Source: a virus
Reading direction: 5' to 3' (one strand)
Length of the DNA stretch: 44,318 nucleotides
Virus record (IMG/VR): IMGVR_UViG_3300034158_000052
Span: 1 to 44,318 of that record
Shown here: positions 1-44,221 of the stretch, piece after piece
How positions within the stretch are numbered: the stretch's first letter is position 1
Layout: each line of letters starts with the position of its first letter
Made by a program: the position numbers and the translations under genes
The notes under the pieces: generated by a model
The model's database searches: none
What the model was told of the DNA's origin: nothing
The model's input: the letters and a program-made list of their open reading frames with translations, nothing else

Positions 1-123
1 GTAGCGTTTGCCGGTGCGCCCGACCAGGAGGTAAGGCAGGTCCGGCGCGACCTGCACGTCGAACGATCGGCGGCTCATGCCGAGATAGGCGGCCGCGGCG
101 TCGGGTTGGTAGAGGCGTTGCAT
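1..123 (-). CDS. Excisionase-like HTH protein, N-terminal part (continues at 44318)
   Basis: These 41 codons start at the ATG at 123 and run off the left end. Continued from base 44295 downward after removing the 23-bp terminal overlap, they give one 117-residue protein. The first 56 or so residues have the pattern of AlpA/Xis-type helix-turn-helix proteins: an N-terminal YQPDAAAAYLGMSRRSF recognition region, then LLVGRTGKRY and DARDLDAWAD. Such proteins bend DNA at attachment sites or regulate integrases. Its place directly upstream of the integrase supports a recombination directionality role, which is inferred. No strong ribosome binding site is visible before the ATG. Confidence 0.7.
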   Translation of the reverse strand, partial: MQRLYQPDAAAAYLGMSRRSFDVQVAPDLPYLLVGRTGKRY

Positions 124-220
124 GGGCTCGCTGGGTTGGGGTTATGGGGTTAGGCAGAAACGGTTTCTGTCTAATTCACTGTTAGAAGGCGCACCCACCG
201 CAGCGAGTGCGCCCAGTTCA
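124..220. other. Intergenic region with two hairpins
   Basis: No gene is seen. A palindrome CAGAAA-CGG-TTTCTG occupies 155-169. A hairpin with 7-bp arms GGCGCAC/GTGCGCC spans 188-213, just past the stop of the BRO antirepressor on the minus strand. It is followed in that direction by TTCT rather than a real T-run, so it is at best a weak terminator. The 13 bases at 180-192 form one arm of a perfect inverted repeat with 1546-1558. Confidence 0.5.
180..192 (+). repeat. Left arm of 13-bp inverted repeat, integron R'-like
   Basis: TGTTAGAAGGCGC here is the exact reverse complement of 1546-1558. It contains a GTTAGAA core close to the integron crossover consensus GTTRRRY. In an inserted integron cassette, the first bases of the cassette are complementary to the R'' arm at its far end. 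That is the relation seen here, so this may be the left edge of a cassette reaching to about 1640. Confidence 0.5.
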
Positions 221-997
221 TCAAGCAGCCTGTTCTCCCTTCAATAAATCGACGATTCGGCTATACCACTTGATCTGTTTCACGGGCGTTCCGTCGCCGT
301 GCTTCTTGCCCGTGTCCAACGCCTCGCCGAGCTTGGCTCCGTCCTCGGTCATCTCGTATTGCTTCCGGTTCTTGTGATCGCGGAAACTCAAGACGAGTCC
401 CTTTTCTTCAAGCATCAAATTTACCTTCTGACCAGACAGGCCAAGCCGTTCGCCGATGTCGGTTGCAGTCAACAGCGCGTCGCGCTCCTTGGCGATCAGG
501 TGCGTTGCGCCTAGGTTGCCGAGCACATCCGTTCCGGTCGTCTTGTAGGTCGCCTGATTGGCTGACAGCAGGGCTTGGTTTCCATCAAAAACCAGCTTGG
601 CAATCGACAGGTTCGAGCGGAATAGTCGGTTAGCATCAATCAGCGGTCGGACTTCGCCAGTTGGTTTCGCCTGATAGCCGCCTGTCTTGCGAACCGTCGG
701 CAAGATCTCCTCGAAAACAAGCTTCTCGAACTCTTGCGCGGTCGGGAGTTGGGAGTTGGCCATCATCCGGTATAGGTCAGGCTCGCGGATGACGCGGGCT
801 TCTTGGTTGCGCCCAAGGCTGTCGACAATGGGGTAGCGTTCCGCGACCCCACGGCAATGCGTTGAAATGGCGTCGTTGGTGTTGGCATAGCCAAGCGCGG
901 CTGCGACATCGCGCGCGACGAACAACGGCTCTCCGTTGTCATCGGCCAGGACGCGAACAGAATGGTTCTCGAACGAAAACGGGATGATATTGCTCAT
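221..997 (-). CDS. BRO-N phage antirepressor with C-terminal KilAC-like domain
   Basis: This 258-residue protein has a Bro-N domain at about residues 5-110 (IPFSFENHSVRVL, LFVARDVAAALGY, EFEKLVFEEILPTVRKTGGY). A C-terminal region at about 165-250 (LLTATDIGERLGLSGQKVN, RKQYEMTEDGAKLGEAL) resembles the KilAC-type domain of phage antirepressors. Proteins of this plan inactivate or compete with the prophage repressor and promote induction. The gene overlaps the upstream small gene by an ATGA, so the two are translationally coupled. Expression is probably held down by the C4-like antisense RNA upstream at 1424-1497. That control is inferred from complementarity, not shown. Confidence 0.85.
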   Translation of the reverse strand: MSNIIPFSFENHSVRVLADDNGEPLFVARDVAAALGYANTNDAISTHCRGVAERYPIVDSLGRNQEARVIREPDLYRMMANSQLPTAQEFEKLVFEEILPTVRKTGGYQAKPTGEVRPLIDANRLFRSNLSIAKLVFDGNQALLSANQATYKTTGTDVLGNLGATHLIAKERDALLTATDIGERLGLSGQKVNLMLEEKGLVLSFRDHKNRKQYEMTEDGAKLGEALDTGKKHGDGTPVKQIKWYSRIVDLLKGEQAA

Positions 998-1275
998 GAT
1001 CTGGCATCCTGATGGGCGCGCTCGGTCAGCATCTTGGCCTGTTCAAGCAGACCTTCGATGCACCAGATGACGTTCATCACATCAACGTGGTGTAGCGAGA
1101 AGCCGTCCTTGATGCTGCCGCCATCGGCGGACAGCAGGAGCAGCACAGAGGATGCGCGGCTCAACGTGCAGTTGAGCGCGTCAACGGGGAACTCGGGGAG
1201 CTTGCCGGGCGGCAAGACGAACAGGTCTTCAGGCGTACCGGGAGAAACGCCAGGCGTGCAGGTGCATTTGGACAT
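994..1275 (-). CDS. Small protein in the C4-antirepressor operon (icd-like position)
   Basis: The 93-residue product starts MSKCTCTPG and ends four bases into the antirepressor gene (ATGA overlap). In P1/P7 the C4 RNA is followed by icd (orfX) and then ant, so this gene holds the icd position, although I see no clear sequence match to Icd. The C-terminal half (ALNCTLSRASSVLLLLSADGG then a helix ending LLEQAKMLTE) loosely recalls small phage proteins of the DUF3077 kind. The reading frame stays open upstream to 1533 through the RNA region, giving an Ash-like conceptual extension (HTPFYGWAGQGAARLAG). I take that part as RNA, not protein. Function unknown. Confidence 0.6.
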   Translation of the reverse strand: MSKCTCTPGVSPGTPEDLFVLPPGKLPEFPVDALNCTLSRASSVLLLLSADGGSIKDGFSLHHVDVMNVIWCIEGLLEQAKMLTERAHQDARS

Positions 1276-1362
1276 TGAGAGTGCTCTTAGTTCGCGGAGG
1301 AACCACCAGCACCGAGACCAATCGGGGCGGGTGGACCGGACAGGTTGGTCTACCGGAAGAGC
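1276..1362 (-). promoter_or_regulatory. Target leader for the C4-like RNA
   Basis: Read on the minus strand, this leader carries GCTCTTC (1362-1356) and then TAGACCAACC (1352-1343). In the same order, these are the complements of GAAGAGC and GGATTGGTCT in the upstream short RNA (1424-1497). Closer to the start codon, ATTGGTCTC (1322-1314) repeats part of the RNA, so the target can pair either with the C4-like RNA or with this local copy. This is the double-block target layout known from P1/P7 immI and related to seqA/B/C of P4. Confidence 0.7.
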
Positions 1363-1423
1363 ACCGGCGAGCCTTGCGGCTCCCTGGCCGGCCCACCCAT
1401 AAAACGGGGTGTGCGCGGGCATG

Positions 1424-1497
1424 AAAAAAGCCGCGATGGTGCGGCCTTGTGCCGCTCTTCTCAGGAGACCAATCCTGGCCTCCCAGTGCGGGGAGGC
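1424..1497 (-). ncRNA. C4-type antisense RNA 1
   Basis: About 74 nt would be made from the promoter at 1504-1533. The RNA begins with a hairpin (CCTCCC, six-base loop, GGGAGG). It then has the pairing segment 1475-1454 (GGATTGGTCT, spacer, GAAGAGC) and ends in a hairpin GCCGC/GCGGC (1445-1430) followed by six T (1429-1424), an intrinsic terminator. P1/P7 C4 RNA is of similar size and represses synthesis of the antirepressor by pairing with the downstream leader. The match here is architectural plus complementarity. I could not run a covariance model. Confidence 0.7.
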
Positions 1498-1503
1498 GCA
1501 TTT

Positions 1504-1533
1504 AACGTATCTCATCCTTTGCGCCCTCGTCAA
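1504..1533 (-). promoter_or_regulatory. Promoter of C4-like RNA 1
   Basis: On the minus strand TTGACG (1533-1528) and TACGTT (1509-1504) are separated by 18 bp, giving a predicted start near 1497. The second C4-like locus has a promoter of the same spacing (TTGACA, 18 bp, TATGCT), which supports both calls. The -10 element is weak by consensus. Confidence 0.5.
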
Positions 1534-1545
1534 GAGTCAAAATCA

Positions 1546-1641
1546 GCGCCTTCTAACACGCGCTTCAAGCGGACCCGCGCGGACAGCGCGGAGTTAATCC
1601 GCCATGTCATCGCGGCGCGGGCCGCTTAACCGGGCGTAGGC
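1546..1641 (+). other. attC-like recombination site of integron type
   Basis: On the plus strand an R''-like TTCTAAC (1551-1557) is followed six bases later by TTCAAGCGGACCCGCGC (L'', from 1564). After a central loop the complementary strand GCGGGCCGCTTAA (ending 1629, L') returns. The arms pair except for an unpaired C after TT and an unpaired A after GCGG. These are the positions where attC sites carry their extrahelical bases (G and T on the folded bottom strand). The R' partner at about 1635-1641 (GTAGGC) is imperfect, while the perfect partner of R'' lies at 180-192, as expected for the two ends of one inserted cassette. Confidence 0.5.
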
Positions 1642-1642
1642 T

Positions 1643-1825
1643 TCACAGCTTCACGGTAGAAGAAGAAACACGCATGACCTCAACGGAAAATCCTTGTTCT
1701 TCCATCCTGCTGGAAACTTCTCCAGCTTCTCCATGGCCCATGCGCTTTGCTTCTTCAATCTCAGATGTCATCAACAGCGTTTCGGCATCGAGCACGTAGC
1801 CAGGTCCAGATTTAACAATGAACAT
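1643..1825 (-). CDS. Hypothetical protein, 60 residues
   Basis: A small acidic protein starting MFIVKSGPGYVLDAE. A GAGGT ribosome binding site lies six bases before the ATG, which supports translation. The C-terminal half (RMEEQGFSVEVMRVSSSTVKL) predicts a mixed alpha/beta fold. No family is recognised. It sits in the leftward early operon, just upstream of the C4-antirepressor module and outside the putative cassette boundary. Confidence 0.6.
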   Translation of the reverse strand: MFIVKSGPGYVLDAETLLMTSEIEEAKRMGHGEAGEVSSRMEEQGFSVEVMRVSSSTVKL

Positions 1826-2360: not shown

Positions 2361-3695
2361 TCAGCCGGCCGCCAGCGGCGCGCTCAGCGCCTGCCAGCGG
2401 TCGTTCGCGGCCTGCGCCACCCGCCGTTCGGCTTCCGGGTACAGGTCCAGGGTCCGGGCTAGGTCGCACCATTCATCAATCTGGTCCTGGGTCTCGGCGG
2501 TAGCGATCCCGCGCAGCACGCCATCGAGGGTGACCGGCGCGGCCGCGTCCGGCGCCGGGTCGGCGAGCGTTGCCGCGGCGGAAGGATTCGCCGCGGCCTG
2601 CTGGGCGGCGATCGCCCCCGCCTCCACCCGCTCGATCCAGTCCAGATCCGCCCCGCGCTTGCGCCGCCAGGTGCCGTCGGCGTTGACGGAGCGCCCGTCT
2701 GAGTGCGCGCCCTCAAGCCAGGGACAGCCGCGCGCGTCGACGATACGGCCGGTCACCGGGTCTTTCTGTGGCCACTCGGGGAGCGGTTCGTTGATGAGCG
2801 GGGCGGTCTCGGCCGGGGTCTGGGCCTGGGGCTCCTGGACGGGCGCGGTGGCCGCTGGCGACAGGTCCGCGACCGGCTCCGGCTGCCGCTGCGTCTCGAC
2901 CTGCGCCGCCAGCCGGGCGTTGAGGTCAACCACCTTGGGGGCCGGCTCGACCGTGACGGCATAGCCGCCGTCATCCTGGCGCGACACGTCGATGACATCG
3001 CGCGCCTCCTCGACGGTGCTCAATCCCATGAGGATCTCGGGGGCGTAGAGCTTGCCGAAAAACGCGGCGGAGCGGTAACGCAGCATCATGTCCGGCATCG
3101 TCTGCCATTTGCTCCCGTTGCGCTGATACCAGCCTTCCTTGACCGCGATCTCAATCGAGACCCGCGGCGATTCGACGCGGTTGCCGGTGGCCTTCTCGGT
3201 CGCCCAGGCCAGGCAGGATTGATCGTTGACCGTCACGGTTTTCGTGCGCGTTTTGCGCTCGCCATTGTCCCAAGCGGTCTCGGTGTATTCGATGTCGCGG
3301 CGCCCTTTATCCTCGATTTCGAAATGGAGGGGGGAGAAACGCCCGCAGCTATTGACGGCGGCAATGATCCATTGCGAGGACCAAGAGGGGCGGCCTTCGA
3401 TGATATGCAGGTTCTGCATCACCATCATGGGATCGGCGTTCATGCGCTGCGCCATACTCAGCGCGACCGCACAATTCGCCACCGCGCGCGGGTTGTCGCG
3501 GGTTTCCTTGACTTTCCCGTAGCGGTCCAGCTTTTCGATCTGGGAGCGATAGGCTTCCGGGACGATGCTGGAGCTGGCGAACATCTTCGAGACGCGCTGC
3601 ATCAACTCAAACGACTGTAAATCGAAGAAGCCGGTTGTCACTGGAGACGGTAGCGGCACGGTGGCAGGCACGGTGGCGAGGGATTGCAGGGTCAT
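2361..3695 (-). CDS. RecT-family single-strand annealing protein
   Basis: The protein has 444 residues and would anneal complementary strands during phage recombination, partnered with the RecE-like nuclease encoded just upstream in the operon. Residues about 30-250 carry family signatures: MNADPMMVMQ (84-93), EGRPSWSSQW (100-109) and SKWQTMPDMMLRYRSAAFF (195-213). A Pro/Ala-rich linker follows. Near 310-350 comes a short module with HSDGRSVNADGTWRRKRG, seen in other phage DNA-metabolism proteins. The C-terminal 60 residues form a helical module. It is longer than typical RecT proteins of about 270-330 residues because of these added parts. Confidence 0.85.
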   Translation of the reverse strand: MTLQSLATVPATVPLPSPVTTGFFDLQSFELMQRVSKMFASSSIVPEAYRSQIEKLDRYGKVKETRDNPRAVANCAVALSMAQRMNADPMMVMQNLHIIEGRPSWSSQWIIAAVNSCGRFSPLHFEIEDKGRRDIEYTETAWDNGERKTRTKTVTVNDQSCLAWATEKATGNRVESPRVSIEIAVKEGWYQRNGSKWQTMPDMMLRYRSAAFFGKLYAPEILMGLSTVEEARDVIDVSRQDDGGYAVTVEPAPKVVDLNARLAAQVETQRQPEPVADLSPAATAPVQEPQAQTPAETAPLINEPLPEWPQKDPVTGRIVDARGCPWLEGAHSDGRSVNADGTWRRKRGADLDWIERVEAGAIAAQQAAANPSAAATLADPAPDAAAPVTLDGVLRGIATAETQDQIDEWCDLARTLDLYPEAERRVAQAANDRWQALSAPLAAG

Positions 3696-6481: not shown

Positions 6482-6865
6482 TTAGGCCGCTTGCCGCAGC
6501 GGCAGGTCGCTAAAATCCAAATCACTCAGGACGATCCGGGCCAGGGCGTTGTCGAGCGACGCCTCGATGAACTCCAGGGCGGGCGTGGCCTGGCGCCGGT
6601 AGCGCCGATCAGCTACCGCGTCCTCCAAGGCGCGGACGACCTCGGCGACGGTGATCTGCTCCGGGAAGCGCGCCAGCACGTAGCCGCCACCGGGGCCGCG
6701 CAGACCAATCACCAGGTTCGCCGCTCTCAGGTCGGCGAAGATCTGCTCGAGGTAGCTGAACGAACAGTGGATGCGCTCCGCGAGGAGGTTCAGCGTGACC
6801 CGCTCGCCGTCGTGGGCGAGGTGGAACAGGGCCAGCAGGGCGTATTGGTGGCGGGCTTTGAGCAT
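6482..6865 (-). CDS. Rrf2-family transcription regulator
   Basis: This 127-residue protein matches Rrf2/IscR-type regulators along residues 1-85: QYALLALFHLA, LNLLAERIHCSFSYLEQIFADLRAANLV as the winged helix-turn-helix, and RGPGGGY (56-62), the family wing signature. Known members sense Fe-S clusters, nitric oxide or redox state. The three clustered cysteines that hold the cluster in IscR are absent here. The only Cys is residue 34, inside the HTH region, so cluster sensing is unlikely in the usual form. Such regulators are rare on phages. It sits in the early operon between small genes. Confidence 0.85.
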   Translation of the reverse strand: MLKARHQYALLALFHLAHDGERVTLNLLAERIHCSFSYLEQIFADLRAANLVIGLRGPGGGYVLARFPEQITVAEVVRALEDAVADRRYRRQATPALEFIEASLDNALARIVLSDLDFSDLPLRQAA

Positions 6866-6893
6866 GGTGTTGGTCTCGTGAATTGGATGGCGG

Positions 6894-7094
6894 TTATTGA
6901 TCCGACTGCTGATTGAATCGACGTGAAAGCGAAATCAGGCATACCAGCCGCCGCGCCATTTCGTGCGGCATGCCGTGATCGGTGAAGCCGCCGAGCGGGA
7001 CATCACGAAACACCATGTCGAGAAAAGCTAACCACTGGCAATCCTCCGGGCGCGGGTCGCCAGCATTGATGCGGCGCTCAAGCGGCGTTGGCAT
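6894..7094 (-). CDS. Hypothetical protein, 66 residues
   Basis: The start at 7094 (MPTPLERRINAGDPRPED) is preferred because the longer frame to 7124 overlaps the upstream gene by 47 bp. The sequence RPEDCQWLAFLDMVFRDVPLG resembles small helical phage proteins, but I cannot name a family. It overlaps the upstream gene by 17 bp. Confidence 0.5.
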   Translation of the reverse strand: MPTPLERRINAGDPRPEDCQWLAFLDMVFRDVPLGGFTDHGMPHEMARRLVCLISLSRRFNQQSDQ

Positions 7095-7470
7095 GCGCGG
7101 CTCTCCGATGGAATTCATCGGCATACTGATCGACCATCTGCCAGAGCGACGCCTTGATGTCCGAATAGGATTCGCGGCGCCGGATCATCTGCGACAGCGC
7201 ATCAGACATGGCGAATTTGAGCGTCTGAACGTGGTACAGCATCGGCTCCGGCATTTCCTGAATCTTGCAGCCGTACCGCAGCGTGATCCGCCGCGCGGAC
7301 GAGATCATGATGCCCTTCAAGCTGTCTTCCTTCGGCCCATTCCCATCGGCATCCTGATAGCCGTTCAGCGTTGACACCACTTCCATCAAAGCGGTTTGCG
7401 CCGATGCTTCGGCGGTCAGCGCGATCTGTCGCCGGTTCTGCTCGATCGTGAGTGACTTCGATTTACTCAT
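7078..7470 (-). CDS. Hypothetical protein, 130 residues
   Basis: Starts MSKSKSLTIEQNRRQIAL. The ATG at 7470 overlaps the upstream stop by 8 bp and is preferred over the upstream ATG at 7485. The protein is mostly helical with a basic patch (SARRITLRYGC) and ends HRRAAHANAA. It directly follows the DUF3102-like gene, so the two may work together. Function unknown. Confidence 0.6.
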   Translation of the reverse strand: MSKSKSLTIEQNRRQIALTAEASAQTALMEVVSTLNGYQDADGNGPKEDSLKGIMISSARRITLRYGCKIQEMPEPMLYHVQTLKFAMSDALSQMIRRRESYSDIKASLWQMVDQYADEFHRRAAHANAA

Positions 7471-8476
7471 GCGGCAAGGCTCCACGTAATGCCAACTGAA
7501 TCATGTCTGCCAGTTGGCGAATCTTTTGCGCGCCGTGCTCCCATTCGCGAATGATCGCTTCCGGGGGCGTCGGGCATTTGCTGGGGTCGAAGGCATCGCC
7601 AATGAACACGGCGATTTCATTGATGTCATGGTCGATCTTGGAGATCAGTGGGCGGTGATGGGCAATCGCCTTGTTCGCGCCTTCCATCGGTGTCAGTTGG
7701 CTTTTCAGGAAATCAATCCGTTGCTCAATGGAAACCAATTGCGCCTCTTTGGCGTCGAGTGACGATTGCTGTTCGCGGAGCTTGTTTTGAACCCCGCGTT
7801 GAATCGCGTCCTCCCGCTCGCGCTTGAGGCTCTTAATGGACTCCTTGAGCTTGTCCGCTTCTTCCTTGGCCTTGCTGACTTCCAGGCGGGTTTCGAGGAT
7901 CTTCGCTTCGGCCAGCTTGTCGGCTTCGGCGGCAAGGGTGCGGCGCAGGGTGGCCGCTTCGCCCTGGGCGATTTGGGCTTTCTGCTCGGCTTCGGTTTTG
8001 GCTTTCTTTTCGGCGATGGCTTGGGCGCGCCAGCTTTCTTTGTCGCGATCCGCAATAACCCGCGCTTCCGCTTCAGCCTTGGCGTTGGCTTCCGCCGCTT
8101 CGCGGGCTAGGCGCTCTTTGGCGGTTTCCAGTTCGAGCGCGGACTGATCGACGGGCGGCTTTTCTTCAGTGAGGAGTTCGAGGGCAGCGCGGATGCTGGG
8201 GGCTTTGAAATCCGCAGCGCGCTGCGGATTTGAGGCGACCCGGATATATGCTTGCGCAGTCCTTTCGCTGAACTCAATCGCCCCGCTCTCCTGCTGGGCC
8301 TTCAACCAGGGCAACCACTCGCCGTGGGCCAAGCCCGCCTTGACCTGCAACAGCAGCAGGCCGCAGTTGACGGCGTGCTGAACGGCCTCACTCGCCTTGC
8401 TCTGCGAAAGTCGATATTCAAGGTTGATCTGTTCCACCGTTGGCACGGTAGCGATCGGTAACGCCAAGTCTTGCAT
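7463..8476 (-). CDS. DUF3102-like coiled-coil protein, first gene of the leftward operon
   Basis: The product has 337 residues and starts MQDLALPIATVPTVEQINLE. The ATG at 8476 has GGAG nine bases upstream, while a longer frame to 8539 lacks a site and runs into the operator. The N-terminal 100 residues (CGLLLLQVKAGLAHGEWLPWL, FSERTAQAYIRVA) match the DUF3102-type domain of phage and plasmid proteins. Residues about 120-270 form a long charged coiled coil (TAKERLAREAAEANAKAEAE). A helical C-terminus follows. Being first after the leftward promoter, it is made early. The role is not known. Confidence 0.75.
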   Translation of the reverse strand: MQDLALPIATVPTVEQINLEYRLSQSKASEAVQHAVNCGLLLLQVKAGLAHGEWLPWLKAQQESGAIEFSERTAQAYIRVASNPQRAADFKAPSIRAALELLTEEKPPVDQSALELETAKERLAREAAEANAKAEAEARVIADRDKESWRAQAIAEKKAKTEAEQKAQIAQGEAATLRRTLAAEADKLAEAKILETRLEVSKAKEEADKLKESIKSLKREREDAIQRGVQNKLREQQSSLDAKEAQLVSIEQRIDFLKSQLTPMEGANKAIAHHRPLISKIDHDINEIAVFIGDAFDPSKCPTPPEAIIREWEHGAQKIRQLADMIQLALRGALPHE

Positions 8477-8509
8477 CGAGGTCTCCCCGTTGGCCGCTGG
8501 GTGGCGGTG

Positions 8510-8570
8510 TGTGCCGTTTTTTATGTGCCGATTAAGCACTTGAGGGGAACCTTAGTGCCTTTTCGGCACA
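8510..8570 (-). promoter_or_regulatory. Left operators and leftward early promoter
   Basis: Two 17-bp palindromes share the form TGTGCCG-nnn-CGGCACA: 8524-8540 (tgtgccgattaagcact) and 8554-8570 (agtgccttttcggcaca). A single half-site, TGTGCCG, lies at 8510-8516. On the minus strand TTGACG (8577-8572) and TAAGGT (8554-8549) are separated by 17 bp. The second operator fills almost exactly that spacer, so repressor binding would block RNA polymerase as at lambda PL. The centres of the two operators are 30 bp apart. Confidence 0.75.
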
Positions 8571-8579
8571 ACGTCAAGC

Positions 8580-8609
8580 AAAAAAATAGCCGCCGTGAAG
8601 GCAGCTATT
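8580..8609 (-). terminator. Intrinsic terminator of the repressor gene
   Basis: Inverted arms 8585-8594 and 8600-8609 (AATAGCYGCC type, one mismatch) enclose a five-base loop. On the minus strand they are followed by a run of T (8586-8580). It lies 27 bp past the repressor stop codon and insulates the repressor transcript from the leftward promoter that begins just beyond. Confidence 0.75.
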
Positions 8610-8635
8610 TTGGTACTTCGAGAATGGTTTGGTTT

Positions 8636-8971
8636 TTATCTTGGCACGGATCGTGACTGTAATATTAGTTCACGTATTGCACCTTTGACATTCGCGGGGA
8701 GTTGATTATAGGCGTCCGCTACCTCGAAAGTTTCTTCGTCCCAATCCTCAACACGCTCATCTCCAAACGCAAGCCATGCGCGCGGGACTTCGAGCGCATG
8801 TGCTAATTTCCCTAGCTGCTTCGGCATTCTGGTTGTTCCCGACTCTGTTTTGGCAATGACATCGCGACTCACGCCAGAATGTAGCGCTAAATCCTCCTGG
8901 CGCCAATTCTTGTGCTCTCGCGCCCATTTTAAACGCGCCCCCAGTGTTTTTAACTTCGGAAATGTAGACAT
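8636..8971 (-). CDS. Phage repressor, short XRE-type HTH protein
   Basis: The 111-residue protein has an XRE helix-turn-helix at residues 8-66 (LGARLKWAREHKNWRQEDLA, HSGVSRDVIAKTESG) and a helical C-terminus, with no LexA-like peptidase domain. It lies between the two operator clusters, on the opposite strand to the Cro-like gene, which identifies it as the lysogeny repressor. The ATG at 8971 has GGGAG seven bases upstream. The frame to 9103 would run through the operators. Lacking the self-cleaving domain, it should not respond to RecA directly. Induction through the antirepressors is therefore plausible, as an inference. Confidence 0.85.
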   Translation of the reverse strand: MSTFPKLKTLGARLKWAREHKNWRQEDLALHSGVSRDVIAKTESGTTRMPKQLGKLAHALEVPRAWLAFGDERVEDWDEETFEVADAYNQLPANVKGAIRELILQSRSVPR

Positions 8972-9023
8972 TTTGTTCTCCCATGGCGGGAATCGCTCCA
9001 GTGCTGCTTTTCGGCTATTGGTC

Positions 9024-36772: not shown

Positions 36773-37162
36773 ATGGCCGCTTCCTATCTCTCCGCCTGGA
36801 GCCCCGCGGCGATCGTCGCCGCCCATACCGCCCTGCTAGCCCTGCTCGACACCGGGGCCACCGTGGGCTCGATCACCATCCACGACAGCGCCGACGTCGA
36901 ACTGGCGCAGATCGACCTGGAGGACCCGGCCGGCGCCGTCAACGGCACCACTGGCGTTCTGACCCTCGCCCCCGCCGCCGCCGGCACCGCCACCGCCACC
37001 GGCACCGCCAGCTACGCCACCATCCGCGATGCCGACGGCGACCCGCATCGCTCACTGACCTGCCAGGCCGGCAGTTCGGCGGTGACCGATCGCTGTGTGC
37101 TCAACACCCTGAGCATCGTTAGCGGCGGGCCGGTCGAGATCGTCAGCGCCGTCATCAGCTAA
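36773..37162 (+). CDS. Hypothetical tail protein, 129 residues
   Basis: Begins MAASYLSAWSPAAIVAAHTA. The pattern ATVGSITIHDSADVELAQIDLEDPAGAVNGTTGVLTL, followed by ATIRDADGDPHRSLTCQAG, recurs in tail modules of siphoviruses of gammaproteobacteria. The fold looks like a beta sandwich. It sits between two tail genes and is probably virion associated. No biochemical role can be given. Confidence 0.55.
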   Translation: MAASYLSAWSPAAIVAAHTALLALLDTGATVGSITIHDSADVELAQIDLEDPAGAVNGTTGVLTLAPAAAGTATATGTASYATIRDADGDPHRSLTCQAGSSAVTDRCVLNTLSIVSGGPVEIVSAVIS

Positions 37163-41159: not shown

Positions 41160-42209
41160 TCAGACCACCGGCGTCAATTCAAAGCGGGGGTCGCTCGCCG
41201 CCAACTGCCGCTGCAGCGCGATCCAATCCGGTCGGGGCGGGATGGCCGTCTTCATCCGCGCCTTCCAAACCCGGTTGATCTGCGGCGTCCAGGGCAGCCC
41301 CCCGCGCAGATGATCCCGGAAGAAGGACGCGCGGATCTCGCTGACCAAGGTCAACAGGTGACCGGCCCAATCCTTGATCGCGGCGATCAGGAGCAGACAG
41401 GGCTCGAAGTCGCTCGCCGGCAGATCAGCAATGCGCTGGATGTGGAAAGCGACATGCAGGGTGTTGTAGACCTGCTGGGCGTCCTGGTCGTGGAAGATCC
41501 AGCCGGACAGGCAGCCATGGACCGCGCGGGAGATGTCCTGAACCTGCTGGGGGCTGATGCGGTCGTCGTCGGCAGGGTCAGTGACCGGGACCGCTGGCGC
41601 GCACCGCAGGTCCAGGCTGGTGACGTAGACGATGGCCTCGGACAACTGCGTCCGGGGCAGTTGGCTGTACTTGGCGATCCTGAACTTGCGGTGCAGGCGG
41701 CTCCAGGCCTCGGCCAGGGCCTTACCCTGAAGCTCGGGCGTGAGGTGCGCGACCTTGTGATGAACGATCTCGCTCAGGGTTTGCTGCTCGGAGGGGATGA
41801 GCGTCTCTTGATGGGACGCGGGCACCACCTGACCAGCGGCTTCGAGGGCCTTGCGCTCCATGGCGATGAAGTAGCGCCGCGCCTCCCGGCCCTTGGCGTT
41901 GTTCTCGACCATGGACAGCTCTTTGGCCATGTCGAGGCCGAGGAGGTAGTCCTTGCTCTTGCGGTCTCCGCCGCGGCCTTTTTTGATTTCCGAATTTTCG
42001 GAAATCAATGCAAAGTCTTGATCCTGAACAAATCCGTATTTCTCGACGCGGGCAGTGAACCAATCAGCGAATTTCGTTCCAGCTTCAAGAAAAACGTGAA
42101 GATCGGTTGCCTTGCAAACGTGCGCAGGCACGCCGCCAATCTGGCCAAGGAAAACGGGGACGAGTGCGGTTTCGCCGGAAACGGGCGCGATGGGGATCAG
42201 GCTGTTCAT
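41160..42209 (-). CDS. AntA-type phage antirepressor (second antirepressor)
   Basis: The product has 349 residues from the ATG at 42209 (MNSLIPIAPVSGETALVPVF). The AntA domain, about residues 30-115, contains DLHVFLEAGTKFADWFTARV, KYGFVQDQDFALIS and GRGGDRKSKDYLLGLDMAKEL, then ARRYFIAMER. The rest (GKALAEAWSRLHRKFRIAKY, later helices) resembles C-terminal regions of P22-type antirepressors. It would inactivate a repressor on induction. The gene has its own promoter and a C4-like RNA upstream, and no icd-like gene in between. Its pairing sequences differ from those of the BRO locus. Confidence 0.85.
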   Translation of the reverse strand: MNSLIPIAPVSGETALVPVFLGQIGGVPAHVCKATDLHVFLEAGTKFADWFTARVEKYGFVQDQDFALISENSEIKKGRGGDRKSKDYLLGLDMAKELSMVENNAKGREARRYFIAMERKALEAAGQVVPASHQETLIPSEQQTLSEIVHHKVAHLTPELQGKALAEAWSRLHRKFRIAKYSQLPRTQLSEAIVYVTSLDLRCAPAVPVTDPADDDRISPQQVQDISRAVHGCLSGWIFHDQDAQQVYNTLHVAFHIQRIADLPASDFEPCLLLIAAIKDWAGHLLTLVSEIRASFFRDHLRGGLPWTPQINRVWKARMKTAIPPRPDWIALQRQLAASDPRFELTPVV

Positions 42210-42217
42210 GCTGCTTA

Positions 42218-42280
42218 CCTGTATTGCTGTCACGCAAACCACAAAGACTGTGGCGGCCGGGAGGGTGACACGGCTACAGA
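42218..42280 (-). promoter_or_regulatory. Target leader for C4-like RNA 2
   Basis: On the minus strand TCTGTA (42280-42275), a four-base spacer, and TGTCAC (42270-42265) are the complements of TACAGA and GTGACA in the upstream short RNA. A further copy GTGACAGCAATACAGG (42233-42218) lies next to the start codon and overlaps the AGGT that could serve as ribosome binding site. The target can therefore pair with the C4-like RNA or fold onto the start region and hide that site. Confidence 0.65.
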
Positions 42281-42353
42281 ACCGCTCGGTTATTCCCGGT
42301 TTCCCGGTATTTTATTAACCGAACTCCCGGCCAGCGAAAAGCTGAATCGGGGC

Positions 42354-42924: not shown

Positions 42925-42993
42925 GACCATACTGAATCATGCCGGGATATGCGTGCGGGCGCCCGGCAAGTGTTGAGTTTAGGCGGCTTCCCC

Positions 42994-43041
42994 GCCCTCC
43001 GAAGGCTGGGGTCACAGGTTCGAATCCTGTCGGGCGCGCCA
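42994..43041 (+). other. attP core: 3' half of a tRNA-Arg(CCG) gene
   Basis: The 48 bases match the 3' part of bacterial tRNA-Arg(CCG): anticodon loop CTCCGAA, the 3' side of the anticodon stem, T-arm (ACAGGTTCGAATCCTGT) and acceptor end through the encoded CCA. The 5' half is absent, so it is not a working gene. Temperate phages carry such a fragment so that integration into the host tRNA gene restores it. The integrase gene ends 67 bp away, in the usual int-attP order. Confidence 0.85.
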
Positions 43042-43095
43042 AAATCAACGAGTTAAAGTATATCCGCTGCGTGTTCCTGTGAGCGTGGCCGTGTT

Positions 43096-43108: not shown

Positions 43109-44221
43109 TCACGCGACCTCGTCGGCGATCACGGTCAAACTGGCCGATGGTCGCACCATCCGCTCCGCTTCATTGAGCAGCCGCGCCAGCCCCGGTGACG
43201 AATAATGCAGGGTGATGTCGCGGTGCTCGTGTCCGAGCAGCGACCGGCGGATGTCGAGCGGAATCCCCGCATCGGCTGCCCGCTCGCCGAACGTATGGCG
43301 AAGATCATGCACGCGGATCGGTAGTCCGGCGGCGGTTCGCGCCGTGCGCCAGCCGTGGTTGGTGATCCGGTACAGCGCCCCGCCATTCGGGGACGGGAAC
43401 ACCCACTCGGCATCCTTTCCGCGCTGCTGTTCGATCACCGCCCGCGCCGTGCGGTTGCAGACGATAAAGCGCCCGTCCTGTTCGCTGGTCTTTTTTCGGC
43501 TGTTCCCCTTACGGATGTCCGGCGGCACCCACCAGATCGCCAGCGCTGGAAGACCGGGAATCGTGCGTTGCGCCTCCCAGCGCAACGTGGTGACTTCCGC
43601 CTGTCTGGCCCCGGTGAAGAGAGCAAACAGGACCGGCGCGATCAGATGTTCGGGAAGTTCGGCGAGCAAGCGGTCCTGTTCCTCCCAGGTGATGGGGCGC
43701 GGCTGGCGCTGACCCCAATCCGGCGCGCGCAACCGTGGCACCGCGCGCGCCAGCCAGGGCTGGTTACCGTCGATCAAGACGCGCGCGGCGAAGTTCAGCA
43801 CCGTCGAGACGGTGCGCAACGCCCGGTCGACAGTCCCACTTGACCGGGTTCCCTGCTGGGCATCGATCCAGCCTTGCAACGCGCGCTGATGCACATGCGA
43901 GAGCGAGAGACGGCCGATCGTGTCAATCAGCATCCGAATGTCCTGCAAGGTGCGGGCGCTGTCCTTGCCACGCCGCTCCAGATCGGCCACATATTCGGCC
44001 GCCGCCTCGCTCCAGGTATGCTCGCGCCCGATCGGGCCGCGCAGCAGTTGCTGCCGGGTCTCGGCTACCCGGCGGTCGAGGATGGCGATGGCGTCTTTGA
44101 GCGTGCCTGTGCCAGTTGATTCTCGAAGTTGGACCTTGTCCGCGCCGAGGCGGACTGTTTTGTCGAGGTGCCAGATCCCGCCGCGTTGGATGAGTCCGGC
44201 CGGTCGTGATGGTTGTCGCAT
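43109..44221 (-). CDS. int: Tyrosine recombinase integrase
   Basis: This 370-residue enzyme integrates the phage at a tRNA-Arg gene. Catalytic residues are in place: Arg206 in FTGARQAEVTTLRW, His305 and Arg308 in VHDLRHTF, His331 in LLGHEHRD and nucleophile Tyr340 in ITLHYSSPG. The N-terminal 60 residues resemble an arm-binding domain and residues 70-165 the core-binding SAM-like domain. Its 5' end overlaps the xis-like frame by 157 nt, so the two are co-transcribed leftward. The attP site lies just downstream. Confidence 0.95.
   Translation of the reverse strand: MRQPSRPAGLIQRGGIWHLDKTVRLGADKVQLRESTGTGTLKDAIAILDRRVAETRQQLLRGPIGREHTWSEAAAEYVADLERRGKDSARTLQDIRMLIDTIGRLSLSHVHQRALQGWIDAQQGTRSSGTVDRALRTVSTVLNFAARVLIDGNQPWLARAVPRLRAPDWGQRQPRPITWEEQDRLLAELPEHLIAPVLFALFTGARQAEVTTLRWEAQRTIPGLPALAIWWVPPDIRKGNSRKKTSEQDGRFIVCNRTARAVIEQQRGKDAEWVFPSPNGGALYRITNHGWRTARTAAGLPIRVHDLRHTFGERAADAGIPLDIRRSLLGHEHRDITLHYSSPGLARLLNEAERMVRPSASLTVIADEVA

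Follow-up and report, generated by a model that had tools for sequence, protein, structure and literature searches.

How does a temperate phage come to carry an RNA-controlled antirepressor operon whose two edges look like the ends of an integron gene cassette? The question is raised by segment 182–1636 of a 44,318-base virus record, which was analysed at full length and is called the window here. Its opening 23 bases are repeated at the record end, and the window is therefore read as a circle. The phage is temperate, and its early operon is co-directional on the minus strand, with the segment cleanly intergenic inside it. The setting is as follows:

43109–44221, minus strand: integrase gene int, a tyrosine recombinase (PF00589, PHROG 1).
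1–123, minus strand: xis/AlpA-like gene, downstream of the insertion, continuing across the circle join toward int.
182–1636, plus strand: inferred cassette of 1455 bp, cargo plus attC, with crossovers between G181 and T182 and between G1636 and T1637.
1643–1825, minus strand: phage operon gene of 60 aa, upstream of the insertion, with its stop codon 2 nt beyond the attC.
2361–3695, minus strand: RecT-like gene within the phage genome.

We conclude that the segment is very probably an integron gene cassette, or the direct descendant of one, which an integron integrase placed in the early operon of the phage. No integron integrase gene (intI) is among the genes examined; the sole integrase identified is the phage tyrosine recombinase.

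No close relative of the window was found. Its first 3 kb gave no DNA match in 50,697 GenBank phage records, and in our relative searches RecT and the integrase had distant relatives only and a 152-aa gene had none. Just downstream of the integrase, a tRNA 3'-end-like stretch (GGTTCGAATCCTGTCGGGCGCGCCA, 42960–43045) is a likely attP core. The early region also encodes an Rrf2-type transcription regulator (6482–6865, minus strand; Pfam PF02082, E 7e-22), and ARAGORN reports a tRNA-Asn in the structural gene region (36881–36981, minus strand) that is unusually long at 101 nt and possibly spurious. The GC content of the segment is 59.5%, against 67.4% for the genome. The neighbouring gene 1643–1825 is also GC-poor (47.5%), so that composition sets no sharp right edge, and it was dropped as proof of the boundaries. 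Across the genome, GC content is lowest and composition most unusual at 6800–9000, possibly another foreign insert. The segment starts 180 nt from the contig join, in a virus record of unknown origin. This could point to an integron fragment artificially joined to a phage contig during assembly. We find this hardly credible, as the contig closes with the 23-nt terminal repeat, the insertion respects the genes of a co-directional operon, and the cargo is phage-type, in a genome that holds a second RNA-antirepressor pair (41160–42332).

The preliminary description of this DNA had staked its case on an attC site in the stretch 1546–1641, to be sought by a covariance search. That search gave a clear match, and a single one in the whole 44 kb genome:

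1551–1641, plus strand: attC site (covariance model, 42.9 bits, E 3.1e-10).
1551–1557, plus strand: R'' box of the attC, TTCTAAC.
1564–1580, plus strand: L'', TT(C)AAGCGG(A)CCCGCGC, followed by the variable loop; L' ends at 1629.

As had been claimed, L'' pairs with L' (GCGCGGGCCGCTTAA) and leaves exactly two bases unpaired, C and A. On the bottom strand, the one that folds, they correspond to G and T, and the spacing of the extrahelical bases is identical to that of plasmid aadA attCs (TT(C)AAGCCG(A)CGCC...). The R'' box departs from the consensus RYYYAAC at its first position; TTCTAAC is likewise the R'' of a class 1 array site (L287, 4938–4997). Folded in place, the attC reaches −30.3 kcal/mol (z −3.2). 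The model was built from 23 attC sites of 84–94 nt, aligned with fixed R and L pairings and drawn from candidates that had been gathered from public genomes by pattern; it returned 393 matches in the 82 attC-pattern loci scanned. Because the training motif resembles the L boxes of the window, the model was tested on class 1 integrons annotated in six plasmids, a control that reduces this concern and does not remove it. Class 1 attCs scored about 18–56 bits with strong strand bias (aadA1 55.5, aadB 51.2, aadA2 50.1, aadA16 49.7 and catB8 48.5 bits; lowest 17.8 bits, after dfrA17), which places the window site in mid-range. Its opposite strand scores 9.7 bits versus 42.9, an asymmetry as in real attCs. 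The attC of the segment is of the type found in Xanthomonadales/Lysobacterales integrons.

A cassette should have matching ends, and the far edge of the segment carries the expected counterpart of R'':

181–192, plus strand: left cassette edge, core-site-like GTTAGAA plus GGCGC (GTTAGAAGGCGC), the exact complement of 1546–1557.

Given R'' TTCTAAC, a circular cassette is expected to start TTAGAA after the G. The complementary core site is present at the left edge and unique in the genome, as the only copies of GTTAGAA in 44 kb are the one at 181 and the inverted one that forms R'' at 1551–1557. The perfect complementarity described for 180–192 holds as an exact 13-nt inverted repeat (180–192 and 1546–1558), except that the thirteenth pair, T180–A1558, falls outside cassette logic and leaves 12 meaningful nucleotides. 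In phage DNA, 6 of 14,339 AAC anchors (0.04%) had an exact 12-nt inverted partner at most 3 kb upstream. Among 99 real array cassettes the ends agree at 6–7 of the 7 R-box positions, and the match extends 4–6 nt further in 21 of them; by this comparison the window ends, with 7/7 positions plus 5 nt, are normal for a cassette. When 1636 is joined to 182, as in the circular form, a near-perfect attC hairpin results (−41.5 kcal/mol, z −6.9). The uniqueness of GTTAGAA, the hairpin of the circular join and the rarity of 12-nt partners together bear out the earlier view that both edges are the ends of one cassette.

The arms assigned in the preliminary description need one correction: TTCTAAC stands as R'', and R' is degenerate. 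At the right junction (1636–1641) the sequence reads G/TAGGC, the slash marking the crossover, and is one T short of the expected G/TT (GTTRRRY). The junction could have lost a single base after insertion, or the target could have been non-standard (attG-like). The defect concerns the integrated junction, and the circular form would regain GTTAGAA; with regard to present mobility we infer that the segment may now excise poorly, as the right core site is without GTT. No empty site, array copy of segment 182–1636 or near relative was found in the collections searched. Two relatives of the int-xis region (L219, L220) are without the segment, and their flanks are not alignable to the window.

Inverted operator pairs flank some immunity regions, and the hairpin lies between two operon genes. 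The 13-nt repeat might accordingly be a repressor operator pair, and the hairpin a phage terminator or regulatory structure that is attC-like by chance. This is very improbable in view of an E-value of 3e-10 that comes with attC-specific bulges and strand bias, and of the absence of the hairpin from about 60 other antirepressor loci. A chance inverted repeat or operator pair was rejected on the E-value, the uniqueness of the sequence and the absence of further copies of the repeat beyond chance, and a terminator because the hairpin has no T-run and none was found there.

What the cassette carries can be read away from the attC, on the minus strand, in the order promoter region, isrK-like RNA, C4 antisense RNA, orf93 and ant:

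1505–1533, minus strand: putative promoter of the cargo operon, with TTGACG (1533–1528), a weak −10 GATACG and a 16-nt spacer.
1424–1497, minus strand: isrK-like short RNA (Rfam RF01394, 44.7 bits, E 6e-8; below the gathering score of 50).
1323–1404, minus strand: C4 antisense RNA (Rfam RF01695, 60.7 bits; gathering score 45).
1281–1321, minus strand: predicted C4 target in the orf93 leader, UUGGUCU (1321–1315) and AAGAGCAC (1288–1281).
994–1275, minus strand: orf93, a leader ORF of 93 aa that overlaps ant as ATGA, in an orf45/icd-like position.
221–997, minus strand: Bro-N antirepressor Ant, 258 aa (Pfam PF02498, E 1.3e-19; PHROG 130, E 1.7e-48).

The putative promoter was recognized by eye and by its position relative to the integron arrays L189 and L191 discussed below; a consensus scan did not pick it up at 1505–1533. 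The isrK-like RNA ends GCCGC...GCGGC-T6 and contains decoy copies of the C4 targets (agaccaa at 1466–1472 and gctctt at 1454–1459, as written on the plus strand). Both C4 loop segments, GUGCUCUU (1364–1357) and AGACCAA (1351–1345), are perfectly complementary to the leader segments AAGAGCAC and UUGGUCU, the former of which overlaps the ribosome-binding region ahead of the ATG at 1275. Compared with shuffled leaders, the full duplex of C4 and leader is not in itself exceptional in energy. Our claim of pairing is based instead on the two perfect, rightly placed segments and on a comparison of 73 C4/Xcc1 loci, in which complementarity of the RNA to its own leader exceeds that of mismatched pairs (p 4e-20). 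The ATG of ant overlaps the stop of orf93 at 994–997. No Pfam or phage match was obtained for orf93, and the closest matches of Ant reach at most 65% identity over the N-terminal 119 residues (L243–L246). The cargo, earlier taken for a lone, regulated BRO gene in reverse orientation, is indeed reversed and RNA-controlled, like Xanthomonadales cassettes, but is a two-gene C4 operon. It is an immunity operon of the P1-immI/Gifsy-1 type.

Judged by sequence comparison, no outside evidence speaks more strongly for a cassette than the layout of the Xcc1-symE cassettes. In three attC arrays of Xanthomonadales (L189, L190, L191), sRNA-Xcc1 and symE are reversed, with the promoter side adjoining an attC, and the order of R box, TTGAC, short RNA with terminator, structured RNA and gene is common to these cassettes and the window. 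sRNA-Xcc1-symE has been described as the most widespread Xanthomonas cassette, and its reverse orientation was remarked upon (PMC12444791). The two differ in cargo (symE versus an antirepressor), in RNA (Xcc1 versus C4) and in location, as the Xcc1-symE cassettes sit in a bacterial integron array and the window segment lies alone in a phage.

sRNA-Xcc1 also occurs in the window itself, at 42247–42332 on the minus strand (Rfam RF02221, 54.7 bits), directly upstream of a second antirepressor, an AntA/ORF6C protein (41160–42242, minus strand; ATG at 42207). Its segments CUGUA and UGUCAC are complementary to the leader before the start codon of that gene, so that the phage appears to have two RNA-controlled antirepressors. 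In another locus sRNA-Xcc1 precedes a Bro-N antirepressor (L004, 4848–4941), and in Lysobacterales (L189–L218) it precedes small genes such as symE or XAC0095-like genes. C4 RNA is present at as many as 14 scattered sites per Lysobacterales genome (G128, G223, G236 and others), upstream of SymE-like and other small genes and not of antirepressors alone. Considering the sRNA-Xcc1 loci separately, the match to the own leader is better than to other leaders (p 5e-5). These complementarities suggest that sRNA-Xcc1 is a C4-like local antisense regulator, a resemblance that offers a function hypothesis for the RNA of a widespread Xanthomonas cassette.

Could the attC be real and the antirepressor operon nevertheless not its original cargo, so that a smaller cassette or an attC remnant came to lie beside a phage immunity operon of the ordinary kind? 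Such operons do not include an attC, as about 60 other antirepressor loci are without a bounding one. Forty-three viral antirepressor loci (333,749 bases) yielded one attC match, in a separate cassette of prophage L005, and the best attC score was 12.8 bits in 22 further loci, namely those of antirepressor relatives in bacterial genomes together with the two int relatives. A bounding attC was likewise absent at 40 C4 loci (L149–L188), and neither C4 nor attC was found beside xis in L219 and L220. On these counts we rejected the idea that the hairpin is a normal part of C4-ant operons. The same observation, that C4-ant operons without an attC are common in phages, can be held in favour of a non-original cargo, as can the degenerate R', the low GC that reaches beyond the segment, and the fact that no array copy of the antirepressor cassette was found; among 299 Lysobacterales and 369 class-level genomes, no integron array contained an antirepressor. 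However, at the opposite end of the operon, 39 bp beyond the stop of ant, a core site matches R'' exactly and with a 5-nt extension, GTTAGAA is found nowhere else in the 44 kb, the promoter-beside-attC layout equals that of the Xcc1-symE cassettes, and joining both ends restores the attC hairpin. We therefore consider a non-original cargo unlikely and retain the reading of the whole segment as one cassette.

Other signs of cassettes turned up in the loci scanned. Prophage L005, which has a C4-antirepressor, contains a lone integron cassette with a HEPN/Abi-like gene (7499–8252, minus strand), an attC of 24.4 bits and a partner edge GTTAAAT 691 nt away. Like that of the window it is a single cassette in a temperate phage with a C4-antirepressor; unlike it, the orientation is ordinary, the cargo is another one, and the antirepressor lies outside the cassette. 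An attC in L006 was set aside as unrelated, because its sole partner site lies at a distance of 3 kb and the match is not extended. Further attCs in IMG/VR contigs are located at L024 4606–4665, after a DNA methyltransferase gene and another gene, at L019 6978–7041 and at L025 934–1960 (three sites), and L017 is an apparent integron array filed as a virus.

From the attC, the matching ends, the RNA families and the operon anatomy, all of which are read in the sequence, we infer an integrase-mediated insertion, silencing of the cargo and prophage induction. Briefly, an integron integrase would have inserted the segment between gene 1643–1825 and the xis-int pair. The cargo has its own expression signals, with the isrK-like RNA, C4, a translationally coupled orf93 and the gene of the Bro-N antirepressor. 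If it works like P1 immI and Gifsy-1 isrK-anrP, C4 would pair with the ribosome-binding region of orf93 and keep orf93-ant silent in the lysogen, and the upstream short RNA would supply decoy copies of the C4 target. Once the balance tips, ant would be translated and a prophage repressor inactivated, leading to induction.

Integron cassettes have been studied mostly for antibiotic resistance and lately for phage defence. The sequence relationships described here suggest that phages can gain prophage-induction switches via integron gene capture. If true, a prophage-induction switch in the form of a cassette links integron gene capture to the decision between lysis and lysogeny, and would account for small operons that jump between unrelated phages. 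It is tempting, albeit doubtful, to go further and propose that integrons serve as an exchange for phage switches, in which C4/Xcc1 modules circulate as reverse, self-expressed cassettes between bacterial integrons and temperate phages and an antirepressor is swapped in one recombination step. The window segment provides a concrete test case, being a single-cassette insertion at a non-integron site in phage DNA.

Neither a cassette in a phage nor a cassette with RNAs of this kind is new in itself. Specifically, attC sites, cassettes and CALINs have been published from phage genomes (Qi et al. 2023, PMC9892861), and several phage attCs recombined with attI1 in E. coli (PMC9892861). The earlier proposal of a new route of immunity-module exchange was thus overstated, and only the cargo type appears to be new. 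The phage survey counted only loci with two or more attCs within 3 kb (PMC9892861), so that a lone cassette like that of the window would be missed, as are single-cassette insertions in general by surveys with a requirement for at least two attCs; its text makes no mention of repressors or sRNAs (PMC9892861). Among the papers returned by our literature searches, none appears, by title and abstract, to link an integron or attC with an antirepressor, or C4 antisense RNA with an integron. What appears to be new is the combination, in which a temperate phage carries a C4-regulated antirepressor immunity operon as a lone cassette.

Two further known systems are close to the segment. According to later accounts (PMC12444791 and PMC12901181) of work by Loot et al. 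2024, cassettes also insert outside integrons, at attG sites, and these insertions resemble that of the window in being single cassettes at a non-integron locus; here, by contrast, the target is a phage early operon and the right half reads G/TA in place of the usual G/TT. The C4-icd-ant operon (immI) of P1/P7 and the isrK-orf45-anrP operon of Gifsy-1 are the counterparts of the cargo. We found no report of a cassette or an adjoining attC for either of them, and the leader ORF of the window, orf93, is of no recognised family. In Gifsy-1 the order isrK, orf45, anrP and the AUGA coupling of orf45 to anrP were shown by experiment (PMC4825925). Both operons share with the window segment the isrK-like RNA and C4, a leader ORF that overlaps the antirepressor gene by ATGA, and the position of the antirepressor as the last gene.
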